Source of the DNA: an uncultured Selenomonadales bacterium
GTDB lineage: Bacteria > Bacillota > Negativicutes > Selenomonadales > Selenomonadaceae
Reading direction: 5' to 3'
Length of the DNA stretch: 64,000 bases
Assembly (NCBI GenBank): GCA_946408355.1
Contig: CAMJRX010000010.1
Span: forward strand, 1 to 64,000
Part shown: piece by piece, positions 40,246 through 46,182 of the stretch
Layout: every line of letters starts with the position of its first letter
Numbering within the stretch: the stretch's first letter is position 1
Made by a program: the position numbers and the translations under genes
The notes under the pieces: generated by a model
Seen by the model: only the letters and a program-made list of their open reading frames with translations
The model's database searches: none
What the model was told of the DNA's origin: nothing

Positions 40246-40280
40246 AATCCGGCGGGTAAAAGGCTCGTCGGATTTTTTTA
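40246..40280 (+). terminator. terminator of the glycogen operon
   Basis: AATCCGGCGGG-N7-CTCGTCGGATT forms an 11-bp stem with two G-T pairs, followed by a run of T. Confidence 0.92.
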
Positions 40281-40308
40281 TTGACATATCGGCAAATTCT
40301 AGTAAACT
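40281..40308 (+). promoter_or_regulatory. promoter of the MATE/ATP-grasp unit
   Basis: TTGACA (40281-40286), 16-bp spacer, TAAACT (40303-40308), directly after the glgA terminator. The -10 box is moderate. Confidence 0.55.
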
Positions 40309-40327: not shown

Positions 40328-40375
40328 ATGAAACAAGAAATAATTTTAAATATACAACACGACGGTTTTAAGTAA
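40328..40375 (+). CDS. 15-codon leader ORF overlapping the MATE start
   Basis: An ORF encoding MKQEIILNIQHDGFK whose stop overlaps the MATE start as TAATG. AAAGGA lies ~13 nt before its ATG. The MATE ATG itself has no good SD, so translation of this ORF probably delivers ribosomes to it. It might also be a real peptide (regulator or substrate). The assignment rests only on position and coupling. Confidence 0.4.
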   Translation: MKQEIILNIQHDGFK

Positions 40376-42165
40376 TGGGAAAATTTTTTAATAATCAAAA
40401 CTCCTCTGTCGAAGTCGGCAAGGAAAGTTTGAAACGAAATTACAAAATTTTACTCAATAAATTTGTTCGTTATTTAATCCCCACAATGATAACAACGATT
40501 GCCTTATCGCTCAATGAATTTGTTGATAGTATGTTTGTAGCAAATTTACTCGGCAGTGAGGCTATGGGGATAGTAAATTTGGGTTTTCCCGTCATGTTGC
40601 TCATGGCTGCCATTTACACGCTTCTCGGCACCGGCGGAGCAACTCTGTATGCAATTTGCTTGGGTGAACGCCAATCGGTAAAAGCCGGTAAAATATTATT
40701 CCTGTCTTTAGCGGCGGCACTTTTCTGCGGTTTGCTTATATTTGCAGTCGGCAAAATTTTTCCTGAGCCGTTAATTTCCCTCTTGTGTCACGAAAAAACT
40801 TTGACGGCGGACTTTGCTCCATACTTTCAGGCACTGATATTTTCGGCACCGTTTTTAATTTTTGTGCTAACGCTTGTATCCTTTCTGCCGCCGAGTGGCG
40901 CACCTGCATTGGCAACGGTCGTTAATGTAATTGCCAACGTCGTCAATCTGATTATGGACTACGTTTATATCACTTATTTTGACATGGGCGTTGCTGGAGC
41001 GGCGTGGGCTACGCTGACAGGATACATTGCAGGGGTACTCATACTGTCGATAATCTTTTTGCGCGACGGAATGAAATTACATTTTTACAAAGCAGGTCGC
41101 CAAGATTTAAATCTTTTGCTTGAATCTGCAACTACAGGAGCGGCGGCGGCACTTACCCAACTGGGCTTTGCAATAAAATTCACCTTTTGTAACATATTGG
41201 CTGCTACTTACGGCGGAACTGTCGGAGTCGTGGCATTCGCGTTTTGCCTACAGATAATGTCGTTTGTGGCTGTTTTTTACGGCGGAATTATTTGCGCGGC
41301 TTTGCCGATTTTAGGCGTTTTGCATGGCGAGCACGATTTTTCAGGGCGTCATCACTTGTTGAAAATTTCCTGTCTGTGCGAGTTGATAATCGTTTCGGCA
41401 CTGGTTTTTTGGTTTGAAATTGCACCTCAACAAGCGATAAATATTTACAATATCACAGATCCGTCAGCAATGTCATTGGCTGAAAGAGGTTTGAGAATTT
41501 TTTCCCTGTCTTTTATACTGCGGAGTTTATGTATAACGTTCATGTACTATCTACAAATTCTGCAAAAAAAATATTATGCAATGATAATCAGCTTGTTTGA
41601 TGGATTCGTTGGAATTGTTCCTCTCGCTTGGCTCATGTGTCAATTAATGGGAATGGACGGTCTTTGGTGGACATACCTTTTAAACAGCGTAATGCTCTTT
41701 GCGGGCATGTTATTTTGGAATTATCATCTTGTCCGAAAGCCCGACAGCAACTATACGGGATTATTACTTTCCGAACGTGACGAGCAGGCAAAGCAAGTTT
41801 GGGATTTTACCATGACAAGCAATGTTCAGGATATTTCTTTTGTTTCCGAGCAACTTTGCGCGTTGGGGGAAAAAGGCGGTCTGAACCACAAGCAAGCAAT
41901 GAAGTTTGGACTTGCCGTCGAAGAAATGGTTGTATACACGAGCAATCATATAAACAAGCAATTTCCTATCGATATTTTGGTACGATTATATGATGACCGC
42001 ATTGAAATAAATTTTCGTAGTTTGGGAAGTTCTTTCAGTCCGTTGAGTGATACCGATAGCGATGACACGTTAAATTTGCGATTGTTGAGAGCATTGGCTG
42101 TTTCTCTGGAATATGATTATATAATGGGAATGAACAGCACGAAAATTATATTGGAGAGAAAATAA
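40375..42165 (+). CDS. MATE-family transporter with C-terminal RsbW-like ATPase domain
   Basis: A 596-residue protein. Residues ~25-455 form a MATE (multidrug/oligosaccharide/flippase) transporter with 12 membrane segments: LIPTMITTIALSLNEFVDSMFVANLLGSEAM and LVSFLPPSGAPALATVVNVIANVVN. Residues ~470-596 are a soluble GHKL/anti-sigma-type ATPase domain: FGLAVEEMVVYTSNHI (the E..N box region), a strand pair VRLYDDRIEINFRSLGSSF, and the closing MGMNSTKIILERK. The usual N of the N-box is shifted or replaced, so ATP binding is uncertain. It is translated right after a 15-codon ORF and 17 bp before the ATP-grasp gene, which suggests export of that enzyme's product. Confidence 0.85.
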   Translation: MGKFFNNQNSSVEVGKESLKRNYKILLNKFVRYLIPTMITTIALSLNEFVDSMFVANLLGSEAMGIVNLGFPVMLLMAAIYTLLGTGGATLYAICLGERQSVKAGKILFLSLAAALFCGLLIFAVGKIFPEPLISLLCHEKTLTADFAPYFQALIFSAPFLIFVLTLVSFLPPSGAPALATVVNVIANVVNLIMDYVYITYFDMGVAGAAWATLTGYIAGVLILSIIFLRDGMKLHFYKAGRQDLNLLLESATTGAAAALTQLGFAIKFTFCNILAATYGGTVGVVAFAFCLQIMSFVAVFYGGIICAALPILGVLHGEHDFSGRHHLLKISCLCELIIVSALVFWFEIAPQQAINIYNITDPSAMSLAERGLRIFSLSFILRSLCITFMYYLQILQKKYYAMIISLFDGFVGIVPLAWLMCQLMGMDGLWWTYLLNSVMLFAGMLFWNYHLVRKPDSNYTGLLLSERDEQAKQVWDFTMTSNVQDISFVSEQLCALGEKGGLNHKQAMKFGLAVEEMVVYTSNHINKQFPIDILVRLYDDRIEINFRSLGSSFSPLSDTDSDDTLNLRLLRALAVSLEYDYIMGMNSTKIILERK

Positions 42166-42182
42166 CAAGGAGGAAAGATCGC

Positions 42183-43874
42183 GTGAAGAAAAAAATTGTG
42201 TTGGTGGAATGCTGGTCTACAGGTGCAAATTATGTGGAAGATATACTCAAGCGCGGCTATGAGCCGGTAATTGTAGAAGCCTCCGATTATATAGGCACTG
42301 AGGCAGACGTTGCTTTGTTTAGGCAAATTCGCGATTTCACGCAAAAGAAACTTCCGCCTGACGTAAAGATAATCAGAGAAAATCCCGACTACAACGAAAT
42401 TTTGCGGCAAGTGCGCGAGATTCAGCCTTTGCATATAATCGCAGGTAGCGAGTTCGGCGTAGGGTTAACCGTTCGTTTGGCACATGATTTGGGACTGCCC
42501 GGCAATCCCATAGAGAGATTGTCTGCAATGACGCAGAAAGACGCCATGCACGAGGCATTGAAAGCGCACGGACTTAGATATATTCGCGGGAAAATCGTCA
42601 ACTCTGTACAAGAGGCAGCAGATTTTTACGATGAAATCGGCGCAGAAGGTATCGTCGTGAAACGCACGCGAGGTGCCGCTACTCAAGGACTTCACCTTTG
42701 CGATAACCGCGAAGATATGCTAAAAGCTGTAGAAACGGAACTTAAAAAGCATGTAAGTATAAGTACGGAAAAAAGCGATGTCCTGTTGCAGGAGCGAATT
42801 AATGGGCGAGAATTTATCGTGAACACGGTATCTTTGAACGGAGAACACCGCCTGGTATCTATTTGGGAATATGACAAAGTAAAAATGCCAAATGGCACAA
42901 ATGCTTACAATTACGCCGAAACAGTCAATGAACTGACAATCGGACATTCGCGGCTTATTCGCTATGCGTTCGAGGTTGCCGATGCAATCGGTATCAAGTA
43001 CGGTCCAGTTCACGGCGAGTATATGATAGACGAAAAAGGTCCCGTGCTGATTGAAGTTAATTGCCGTCCAATGGGGGGTTCCATGCCGCGACAATTTGTG
43101 GATATGGCGTTCGGTCAACACGAAACGGACAGTGCCCTTGAGGCTTATCTTGATCCGGAAGGGTTTGCGCTCAAAAAGCAACAATTATATCGTCCCTTGC
43201 GCAAGGCAGCGTTAAAATTTTTTATCCTGCCCGATGATACGCCTGCAGATACCGCTCCTATACTTTCAATTAGCCGCCAACTGAAAAGTTATTATCAAGG
43301 TAGCTTTGACCGCGTGGGGCGAGAAACTGTTTTGGCAAAAACGAGAGATGTGGAAACTGCAGGCGGCGTAGTGTACATGATTCACGATAATGACAAAGTT
43401 GTTAAGCGTGAGCTTAAATTGTTGCATACTTTGGAAATGAAGTACCCGCGCATTTTGTTCCATAACTTGCAACCCGAAGGGCAAAAGTCCGAAGAAAATT
43501 TCGACTTGCCAAAAATTATGGATATGGCTGCTTGTCATGGTGCGACGCTAGTATTTTCCGACAACTTGACTCAAGCGGAAGGTGTAACTGTTGTGAACAC
43601 GGACGATTTGCAAGATGTTTATGACGGCTTTGATCAAGGTATTCTCGATTTGCAGGAAGATACGAGCTTTAAAGATCTTGAAAGCCTGTTGCAACAGATA
43701 TTTACATTCTTCCGTAAAGTGCGGCAGGGTGGGCGTATCATAGTGGCGGAGACAACATATCGCCGATTGCCTTACGGAATGGACGGTATGGACATATTGG
43801 CAAAGCTTGGCGGTCTGCGAATAGAAGTTCCGCCTTCAGGCAAATCATCACTGTTAGTCGCTACGGTTCTATAA
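42183..43874 (+). CDS. ATP-grasp ligase (L-amino-acid-ligase type) with C-terminal extension
   Basis: A 563-residue protein starting at GTG after AAGGAGG. The N-terminal ~95 residues are a Rossmann-like pre-ATP-grasp domain (KIVLVECWSTGANYVEDILKRGYEPVIVEAS). Residues ~100-310 are the ATP-grasp fold: MTQKDAMHEALKAHGL, EGIVVKRTRGAATQGLHLC, LLQERINGREFIVNTVS, and the metal-binding end GPVLIEVNCRPMGG. The region resembles ligases such as BacD, which join amino acids through acyl phosphates. The last ~160 residues end in GGRIIVAETTYRR and LGGLRIEVPPSGKSSL, with a methyltransferase-like look but no clear SAM motif. The product is unknown, possibly a dipeptide-type metabolite. Confidence 0.8.
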   Translation: MKKKIVLVECWSTGANYVEDILKRGYEPVIVEASDYIGTEADVALFRQIRDFTQKKLPPDVKIIRENPDYNEILRQVREIQPLHIIAGSEFGVGLTVRLAHDLGLPGNPIERLSAMTQKDAMHEALKAHGLRYIRGKIVNSVQEAADFYDEIGAEGIVVKRTRGAATQGLHLCDNREDMLKAVETELKKHVSISTEKSDVLLQERINGREFIVNTVSLNGEHRLVSIWEYDKVKMPNGTNAYNYAETVNELTIGHSRLIRYAFEVADAIGIKYGPVHGEYMIDEKGPVLIEVNCRPMGGSMPRQFVDMAFGQHETDSALEAYLDPEGFALKKQQLYRPLRKAALKFFILPDDTPADTAPILSISRQLKSYYQGSFDRVGRETVLAKTRDVETAGGVVYMIHDNDKVVKRELKLLHTLEMKYPRILFHNLQPEGQKSEENFDLPKIMDMAACHGATLVFSDNLTQAEGVTVVNTDDLQDVYDGFDQGILDLQEDTSFKDLESLLQQIFTFFRKVRQGGRIIVAETTYRRLPYGMDGMDILAKLGGLRIEVPPSGKSSLLVATVL

Positions 43875-43939: not shown

Positions 43940-44917
43940 ATGGTAAGAAGAGATAGCAGAGCCCGATTAAGCGGCGGCGGTCGACAATGCGTCGGTTGCG
44001 GGCGATTGATAAAAGGCGGACTTTATTGCGAGTCGTGTCTTGAAAAATTTAGAGAACGGGCAAAAGTTCAGGGCGAACGCATGGAAACTTTAAAAAGCAA
44101 CGCCCTAAAAAAAGTCGCCGAAGACAGAGTAGAGACTATAATTATGATTGTCAACAGCGACGAACGCAACTTGAGCATAACCAAAATCGTTTTGGAGCGC
44201 GGCTTGCCCGAATACAAAATTCTTGCAGTAAATAATCCTTTGACTGCGATAAATACGCTCGTTAGCCGCGAAATAAATCTTGTTGTTTTGGACGCAGATT
44301 ATAATGGGCTGGACATGTTGCGGCGAATTCGCGAAGACGACCGCTTTAAAACTGTGCCCGTAATGATGATGTCCGGCTCGACGCGGCGGGAAATTGTCGC
44401 TGATGTTTTTTCGCTCGGCGTGCAAGATTACGTTTCAAAACCTTGCGCCCCAAAAGATTTAGTCGGACGTGTCAATAAAGTTATAACGGGCAAAGACTTT
44501 AAAGGCGAAACCGCGCCCGCTGTCGAAACGCCGCAAAGAGGTTCTTTCAGTGTCTTGCTTATTGACGATGATATTTTCGACTTACGGCAGGAAAGAGAGA
44601 CGCTAAAAAATCGTCTGCCCTGCGCTATAACTACAGCTCAAAGCGCGGCAGAGGGCATGAGAATTTTGGAGAGCAACGGCGCAGATTTGGTTCTCGTCAA
44701 TTTGGATATGCCCTTCGTCAACGGCTTGAAATTTTTATCGCTCGTCGACAACAATCCAAAGCTTAGAAATATCCCCGTGATAATCATGACGGAAACGCGA
44801 GACTTTGCGGTTATCAGCGAAATAAATAAATCGTCTGCGGCGGGGCACGTCAAAAAACCGAATTTCACAGAGGACGGCTTGGCTTTAATTGAATCTAAAC
44901 TTCGCAAGCGCAGATAA
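43940..44917 (+). CDS. two-receiver response regulator with N-terminal zinc-finger-like motif
   Basis: A 325-residue protein. The N-terminus has CVGCGRLIKGGLYCESC, a C-x2-C/C-x2-C zinc-ribbon-like element. Residues ~65-180 are a receiver domain with the acceptor in LVVLDADYNGLDML and the conserved Lys in VSKPCAP. Residues ~195-325 are a second receiver (VLLIDDDIFD) in which the acceptor position is Asn (LVLVNLDMPFVNG), so it probably cannot be phosphorylated. There is no DNA-binding output domain. The partner kinase is not in the window. It follows the ATP-grasp gene by 65 bp. Confidence 0.85.
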   Translation: MVRRDSRARLSGGGRQCVGCGRLIKGGLYCESCLEKFRERAKVQGERMETLKSNALKKVAEDRVETIIMIVNSDERNLSITKIVLERGLPEYKILAVNNPLTAINTLVSREINLVVLDADYNGLDMLRRIREDDRFKTVPVMMMSGSTRREIVADVFSLGVQDYVSKPCAPKDLVGRVNKVITGKDFKGETAPAVETPQRGSFSVLLIDDDIFDLRQERETLKNRLPCAITTAQSAAEGMRILESNGADLVLVNLDMPFVNGLKFLSLVDNNPKLRNIPVIIMTETRDFAVISEINKSSAAGHVKKPNFTEDGLALIESKLRKRR

Positions 44918-44934: not shown

Positions 44935-46182
44935 TTGAGTGTCGATAAGGATTTGTTTCTCTACGATTTGGCGGTCGTGGCTATTCTGAAAAATGAGGGA
45001 CGTTACCTTAAAGAATGGCTCGATTATCATTTGCTCGCTGGAGTTGAACATTTTTATCTTTACAACAACGACAGCATTGATAATTACAATGAAGTTATTG
45101 CGCCTTATGTAGACGCCGGCTTGGTTACAAGTAAATATTTTCCTGGCAATATAATGCAATTCGTGGCTTACTTTGATGCAGTTCAAGATTATCGATTTCA
45201 TTGCAGATATATAGCGTTCATTGATTTGGACGAATTTATTTTTCCTAAAAATACCACCGGTACGATAATGGAAACTGCTGACAAAATTTTGTCTAATGAT
45301 CCAGAAGCTTCCGGTTTAGGTATTCATTGGCAGTGCTTTGGCTCGAATGGACAAGAAAAGGCAGATTATTCTCGTGGTGTTTTAGAACGCTTTACTAGGC
45401 GTGCAAAGAAAGATTACTTTTACGATAGAGGTAGTAACACCGGAAGTGGCAATATTTTTTTTAAATCCCTATTAAATCCTCGACGTATTAAAAGTGTTAA
45501 TATTCATTTTGCGCAATACTTTGATGAACATTACACCATAAACGAGAATGGGAGCAAACTCCCAAATGCATTTGGTTTTTATCCCGTCACGGCAGAAAAA
45601 ATTGTAGTTAATCATTATATAGTAAAATCCCGCGAAGAATTCAACTCAAAGCTGACGCGAGGTAGAGCAGGTATTAATCGCAATTTGTCTATAGAGTTTT
45701 TTTATGATTATGATCGTAATGATGAATTCGATGACGACATTTTGAAATACCGCGCCGCACGTGAAAAAATTTTTTCTCTCAAGAGTGATACACAACGGAT
45801 TAGCCGTGTTATAGAAACTTTGACAAAAACTTTATCGCAATACGCCGACGACGAAATTTTCGATTTGGAGACGGCGTTGACTTGTCGGGCGTTAAGTGCT
45901 TACCTGCTGAAAAAATTTCCGAATGAGGAACGCTTTAAAGTTTTTGAAGAGGCGTCGCTTGCCGCAATTTTAAAATCTCTTGACGGACTTAAACTTTCTG
46001 AAGTTCAGCTTTTGATGGACGAATTGCCTAATCTTTTAATTTTGCCTTATCCTATTGTTGAGGAGCTTCGTGACGTTTCAATTCAAATTACGTCGCAGAT
46101 GATGAATTTAATGCGCGAAAAAACCCTTTGGAAAGATTTTCTTGAATGGAATTATCTGTATCGCCTTCTGAAGAGTTTGTAA
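44935..46182 (+). CDS. GT92 (DUF23)-type glycosyltransferase
   Basis: A 415-residue protein starting at TTG after GAGGTG. Its N-terminal ~250 residues match the GT92/DUF23 family: VAILKNEGRYLKEWLDYHLLAGVEHFYLYNND, IAFIDLDEFIFP with the DxD nucleotide-sugar/metal site, HWQCFGSNGQ, and VNHYIVKSREEF. The C-terminal ~130 residues are helical and not recognised. It likely transfers a sugar onto a surface glycan or protein in the cytoplasm. The broken copy at 8.1-8.6 kb is a close paralogue of its first ~170 residues. Confidence 0.85.
   Translation: MSVDKDLFLYDLAVVAILKNEGRYLKEWLDYHLLAGVEHFYLYNNDSIDNYNEVIAPYVDAGLVTSKYFPGNIMQFVAYFDAVQDYRFHCRYIAFIDLDEFIFPKNTTGTIMETADKILSNDPEASGLGIHWQCFGSNGQEKADYSRGVLERFTRRAKKDYFYDRGSNTGSGNIFFKSLLNPRRIKSVNIHFAQYFDEHYTINENGSKLPNAFGFYPVTAEKIVVNHYIVKSREEFNSKLTRGRAGINRNLSIEFFYDYDRNDEFDDDILKYRAAREKIFSLKSDTQRISRVIETLTKTLSQYADDEIFDLETALTCRALSAYLLKKFPNEERFKVFEEASLAAILKSLDGLKLSEVQLLMDELPNLLILPYPIVEELRDVSIQITSQMMNLMREKTLWKDFLEWNYLYRLLKSL

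Follow-up and report, generated by a model that had tools for sequence, protein, structure and literature searches.

Two adjoining genes of an uncultured Selenomonadales bacterium, which encode a MATE-family transporter and an ATP-grasp ligase, were found to recur side by side in bacteria and archaea. The pair is rather likely to be a cassette for the synthesis and export of a small peptide, in which a dead, RsbW-derived domain of the transporter would act as a docking or regulatory surface. The genes lie in a window of 64,000 nucleotides (nt), i.e. the whole stretch of DNA that was analyzed (assembly GCA_946408355.1, contig CAMJRX010000010.1, positions 1 to 64,000 of the forward strand). The host bin (G000) was Negativicutes-like and comprised 2.45 Mb, with a completeness of 84%. 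Among named relatives, those nearest to its ligase belonged to Selenomonadaceae sampled from sheep rumen and red deer. As stated in a model's earlier reading of the same letters (the original prediction), the two genes are co-directional and separated by 17 bp. They and their domains are as follows.

40375 to 42165, plus strand: MATE-family transporter of 596 amino acids (aa) with an RsbW-like C-terminal domain (Pfam MatE; start codon kept in relatives)
40480 to 41667, plus strand: transmembrane body of the transporter, residues 36-431 (TIGR00797, full length 1-396)
41794 to 42156, plus strand: degenerate domain of predicted RsbW/SpoIIAB fold, residues about 474-594 (AlphaFold2 (AF2), Foldseek, and motif table)
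42183 to 43874, plus strand: putative L-amino-acid-ligase-type ATP-grasp ligase of 563 aa (Pfam ATP-grasp_4, PRK07206, DdaF, and profile match to 30vh)
42651 to 43082, plus strand: ATP-grasp nucleotide-binding domain of the ligase, residues 157-300 (Pfam coordinates)
43500 to 43871, plus strand: extra C-terminal domain of the ligase, residues about 440-563, with a predicted methyltransferase-like Rossmann fold and without an S-adenosylmethionine (SAM)-binding motif (AF2 and Foldseek)

The pairing of ligase and transporter is not accidental. Genome collections were surveyed with search patterns built from Negativicutes sequences, and the bins concerned may contain foreign contigs. Among the best 80 of 254 ligase relatives, all of them named, a MATE gene adjoined the ligase gene in 30, in both gene orders and mostly with overlapping frames or at a distance of at most 21 bp. 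By phylum, adjacency was seen in 19 of 32 Bacillota, 9 of 24 Methanobacteriota, 2 of 4 Spirochaetota, 0 of 17 Bacteroidota, and 0 of 2 Synergistota loci. One genome (G139) encoded a single MATE::ATP-grasp fusion of 987 aa in which MatE and ATP-grasp_4 both exceeded their cut-offs; an RsbW remnant was sought inside the fusion protein (L067), and no significant match was obtained. When 381 genomes of the class Negativicutes were compared for ligase relatives of at least 39% identity, 10 genomes, the window's own included, carried a MATE gene adjoining such a relative, the MATE being degraded in two of them (G203 and G223). Thus, the co-occurrence in other genomes on which the original prediction depended was recovered. 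Because ligase pairing required 4 changes on the MATE tree, it probably arose more than once.

The ligase belongs to the ATP-grasp enzymes both by its Pfam match (ATP-grasp_4, 45.6 bits against a cut-off of 27) and by its ATP/Mg-binding residues: Lys160, Glu204, Glu210, His277, Glu279, Glu291, and Arg295 were invariant in 11 relatives. Residues 1-420 showed full-length similarity to PRK07206, DdaF, and the solved structure 30vh. The scores were 236 bits for PRK07206 (cut-off 302), 117 for DdaF (840), and 16 for BacD (850), so none of these curated L-amino acid ligase cut-offs was reached, and the window protein is a relative rather than a curated member. A ligase profile run against solved structures retrieved the L-amino acid ligase 30vh with an E-value of 9.8e-65, followed by BL00235 and BacD. 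These matches assign the ligase body to the L-amino-acid-ligase type and agree with the BacD analogy of the original prediction.

Residues 420-563 are absent from the PRK07206 and DdaF families. Neither Pfam nor NCBIfam recognized a family at residues about 440-563, as had been anticipated, and a sequence search of the C-terminal domains of both ligase and transporter against solved structures returned nothing usable. The AF2 model of the ligase domain reached a predicted local distance difference test (pLDDT) value of 84.8. Nearly all top Foldseek matches were methyltransferases with E-values of about 1e-4, but TM-scores (TMq) amounted to only about 0.4-0.5; at these low scores, the model resembled the second half of class I methyltransferases. 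The glycine-rich SAM-binding motif I was found neither in the consensus of 68 ligase sequences nor in the every-third rows inspected. An apparent stand-alone copy of the domain in G095 was rejected, the contig ending at that point. The ligase gene is directly followed by a methyltransferase gene in two Lachnospiraceae bins, both methyltransferases being of one family (L081:2555-3280 and L084:3652-4368; Pfam was run on L081 only).

The transporter matched Pfam MatE with 94.8 bits in two stretches (cut-off 24.9), and no other Pfam family was recognized. TIGR00797 gave 124.2 bits, below its own cut-off of 147.4. The assignments of the two proteins to the MATE and ATP-grasp families in the original prediction were therefore upheld. 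For the transporter C terminus, the last 155 residues were modeled by AF2 with 37 sequences as input, resulting in a pLDDT of 85.9. The top Foldseek matches were RsbW and SpoIIAB (best E-value 1.7e-8; TMt 0.81-0.84 for RsbW), pointing to a Bergerat-type fold with RsbW topology and, by this model, to an RsbW-derived domain. The domain differs from RsbW and SpoIIAB in being fused to a transporter and in lacking the residues that bind ATP-Mg: the N-box Asn is replaced by Tyr (Tyr521) and the G1-box Asp by Ser (Ser549), and the G2-box glycines are gone. A Pfam HATPase search of the transporter gave no match even at E ≤ 1. Because this match is missing and all three motifs are lost, the domain is, by sequence, not an ATPase. 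An RsbW-like ATPase domain had originally been proposed; its GHKL/RsbW fold was borne out by the AF2 model, whereas the ATPase activity was not supported.

Motifs were then scored in 71 MATE-RsbW proteins that remained after removal of near-copies. The G1 Asp was kept in 0 of 29 ligase-paired MATEs versus 20 of 21 flanked by genes for nonribosomal peptide synthetases (NRPS) or phosphopantetheinyl transferases (PPTase). These counts are not independent, since the MATE tree accounts for the loss of this residue with about 3 changes. The N-box Asn persisted in 2 of 29 ligase-paired proteins, and both residues were lost in 27. Since every scored ligase-paired MATE has lost the G1 Asp, the suggestion that an ATPase domain couples export to signaling was not supported for the window pair; for NRPS-linked relatives with intact motifs such coupling may exist.

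The MATE-RsbW fusion, thought unusual in the original prediction, is common beside NRPS genes. In 21 scored loci, MATEs of the same family as that of the window had an NRPS gene, an Sfp-type PPTase gene, or both beside them. The L069 MATE, 58% identical to that of the window, has an NRPS gene directly upstream and no ligase gene downstream. In Treponema (L098), genes for MATE, ligase, and NRPS (A-T-TE) are consecutive. The window's own genome encodes two further MATE-RsbW fusions with intact domains (G000:C77:2677-4419, i.e. L071, and G000:C7:11761-12066), both exceeding the HATPase_c_2 (PF13581) cut-off; sequence comparison places the former between an NRPS-type gene fragment and a PPTase-like gene. 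Transporter-RsbW fusions of a second kind were noticed near ligase genes, namely SDF (sodium:dicarboxylate symporter) proteins with an N-terminal RsbW-like domain (L139:7730-9343, profile E-value 1e-7, and L111:11925-13625, 8e-11).

We propose the following course of events. In the manner of L-amino acid ligases, BacD, and DdaF, the ligase would use ATP to join carboxylic acids and amines (amino acids) into a short peptide-like metabolite, and its extra domain, a reduced methyltransferase-like fold, would probably bind a substrate or a partner. The MATE would move this product out of the cell; that it exports the product of its own ligase is inferred from neighborhood and family. It would belong to a family of natural-product exporters with an RsbW-derived cytoplasmic domain that often accompany NRPS genes. 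Without ATP-binding residues, the domain of ligase-paired MATEs would probably serve passively as a surface for docking or regulation, with an RsbV-type STAS protein or the ligase as its partner.

Several observations weigh against this cassette. No MATE adjoined the ligase in 50 of the 80 loci (17 of 17 Bacteroidota and 2 of 2 Synergistota among them), in some because the contig ends; given these loci, the ligase can work without the transporter. At L057:5584-8391 (also L077), several stops interrupt the MATE gene and the ligase gene is frameshifted, whereas the neighboring genes are retained; the unit is thus dispensable and is being lost there. Ligase-paired MATEs fall largely into two clades, and motif loss is therefore a matter of only about three events. 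The methyltransferase match of the ligase C-terminal domain is weak by TM-score.

That over half of the ligase loci, including all from Bacteroidota, lack such a MATE would also fit a product that stays in the cell, such as an osmolyte, an antioxidant, or a storage dipeptide, with the adjoining MATE being a general efflux pump for by-products or resistance. Cations and drugs are frequent substrates of MATE exporters, and the window pair adjoins a glycogen operon. However, recurrent adjacency in both orders, overlapping frames, and one fusion exceed the needs of a general pump, and the same MATE family accompanies NRPS genes. An intracellular product is therefore considered unlikely. Adjacency by chance or general rearrangement, for which the many ligase loci with unrelated neighbors such as glycoside hydrolases might speak, deserves hardly any credence: it is already contradicted by 30 of 80 loci from three phyla and two domains, with both orders and a fusion.

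Two further alternatives concern the proteins themselves. The ligase might act on a ribosomal peptide or another macromolecule in a graspetide-like or wall-related manner and not on free amino acids. ATP-grasp enzymes modify peptides and macromolecules elsewhere, and the extra C-terminal domain could accommodate a larger substrate. Its closest solved relatives by sequence are, however, free-amino-acid ligases, and no conserved small open reading frame (ORF) was noticed beside the ligase, no systematic search having been made below 75 aa; we regard a macromolecular target as improbable. The predicted RsbW fold raises the idea of a working ATPase or kinase that has a STAS protein as its phosphorylation target and links export to signaling. 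Potential partners exist: of the 80 ligase loci, 11 have SpoIIE-type phosphatase-like genes in their vicinity and one (L082) has STAS genes, and SpoIIE, STAS, and RsbW proteins are encoded elsewhere in the window's own genome. An active kinase is nevertheless very improbable in view of the joint loss of Asn and Asp in nearly all ligase-paired MATEs, of Asp in every one, and of a window protein without a Pfam HATPase match in a genome whose two other MATE-RsbW proteins score above the PF13581 cut-off. A peptide-making and -exporting cassette with a dead RsbW-derived surface remains our preferred explanation.

Ligase-exporter pairs (BacD/BacE) and NRPS-MatE-serine phosphatase clusters of Methanobrevibacter are already known. 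In the case of bacilysin, the ATP-grasp dipeptide ligase BacD and an efflux protein that handles the product are encoded together (PMC9147277). The window pair likewise combines an ATP-grasp ligase with a transporter, recurrently encoded together, and BacD was found by the ligase profile; however, bacABCFG-like precursor genes are lacking, and an additional domain is present in the ligase and an RsbW-derived one in the transporter. BacE is a 394-aa exporter of the MFS and not of the MATE type. In Methanobrevibacter ruminantium M1, MatE genes lie beside both NRPS genes, and serine phosphatases and an anti-sigma antagonist, i.e. RsbU/RsbV-type regulators, lie beside one of them (PMC2812497). Both systems place a MATE exporter beside a peptide-making enzyme in a rumen microbe. 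The peptide maker is an NRPS in M1 and would be a free-standing ATP-grasp ligase in the window, where no such regulators adjoin the pair. Searches for ATP-grasp with rumen or Methanobrevibacter and for MATE with anti-sigma yielded no paper on the ligase-MATE pair among the open-access papers searched. Within the same bounds, we met no account of this ligase family with its additional domain, of its occurrence in both the methanogens and the bacteria that live in herbivore guts, or of RsbW domains being dead in some members and intact in others.

The glycogen operon (glgP, glgB, and glgA) and its terminator precede the pair, and the following signals were located.

40246 to 40274, plus strand: intrinsic terminator after glgA (stem of 12 pairs, loop of 5 nt, T-run), which sets the pair apart from the glycogen operon
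40281 to 40308, plus strand: promoter-like site TTGACA-16-TAAACT before the pair (10/12 consensus)
42167 to 42173, plus strand: ribosome binding site AAGGAGG before the GTG of the ligase, read from sequence

The 3' arm and T-run of the terminator (GTCGGATTTTTTT) were kept in relatives, as seen in the alignment, and both promoter hexamers were identical in three (L076, L070, and L068), in keeping with the promoter of its own that had been claimed for the pair. The unit had been stated to start at 40328, where an ATG lies. As the start of the transporter, this ATG was rejected: it opens an out-of-frame mini-ORF of 15 codons that is absent in all three aligned relatives, and the transporter starts at 40375. 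In L068, the gene upstream of the same promoter is unrelated (an RTX repeat protein), and a MATE gene 95% identical to that of the window follows (L068:2293-3924), within which the contig stops. Because the same promoter and a nearly identical MATE stand behind a different gene, the promoter-MATE stretch has moved as one block. Directly 3' of the window pair, positions 43940-44917 encode two response-regulator receiver domains after an N-terminal CxxC...CxxC zinc-ribbon-like stretch, an arrangement kept in two relatives. A glycosyltransferase family 92 gene follows at 44935-46182; tandem copies lie downstream of the pair in relatives (L056 and L057).

Sources were assigned from record titles, some of which give none. 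Wherever a source was given, the best 80 of 254 ligase relatives, archaea included, stemmed from the herbivore gut, almost always that of ruminants: rumen, reticulum, abomasum, ileum, and rectum of sheep, goats, deer, yak, buffalo, and others, with one horse sample. Two named records among them are not metagenome-assembled genomes, Treponema JC4 and Prevotella tf2-5, which we take to be rumen isolates. On the ligase tree, each phylum formed nearly one group, with 5 changes over 5 groups. We therefore infer that the ligase crossed from phylum to phylum only a few times, and not recently, and afterwards spread within phyla; the cassette would have passed between rumen Bacillota, Spirochaetota, and Methanobrevibacter. 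Carriage by mobile elements was rejected. Viral contigs were searched and no relatives were found, and the best plasmid matches listed showed at most about 29% identity at 74-78% coverage without the C-terminal domain; residues 420-563 were uncovered, apart from some 20 residues at most in a few of these matches. Methanobrevibacter bins contained several ligase copies, some in tandem. Pairs of ligase genes of this family, arranged in tandem or face to face, were seen in L117, L133, L136, L149, and L153, mostly from Methanobrevibacter, as if two joining steps were needed.

It is conceivable, at somewhat less than an even chance, that these genes represent an undescribed metabolite system of the ruminant gut. 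One family of ATP-grasp peptide ligases with its own extra domain, often accompanied by a dead-RsbW MATE exporter, would be common to Bacillota, Bacteroidota, Spirochaetota, Synergistota, and Methanobrevibacter, with a concentration in herbivore guts, and one class of small peptides may be both produced and exchanged by the bacteria and methanogens of the rumen. If this is true, one ligase family in methanogens and their bacterial neighbors would offer a direct, testable handle on how hydrogen producers and methane makers interact chemically. Within a single exporter family, NRPS-side members keep an ATP-binding RsbW domain and ligase-side members have lost it, an evolutionary contrast that makes the role of this domain in the transporter testable by comparison. 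The MATE-RsbW fusion may also serve as a marker when the genomes of Negativicutes and rumen archaea are mined for peptide gene clusters.

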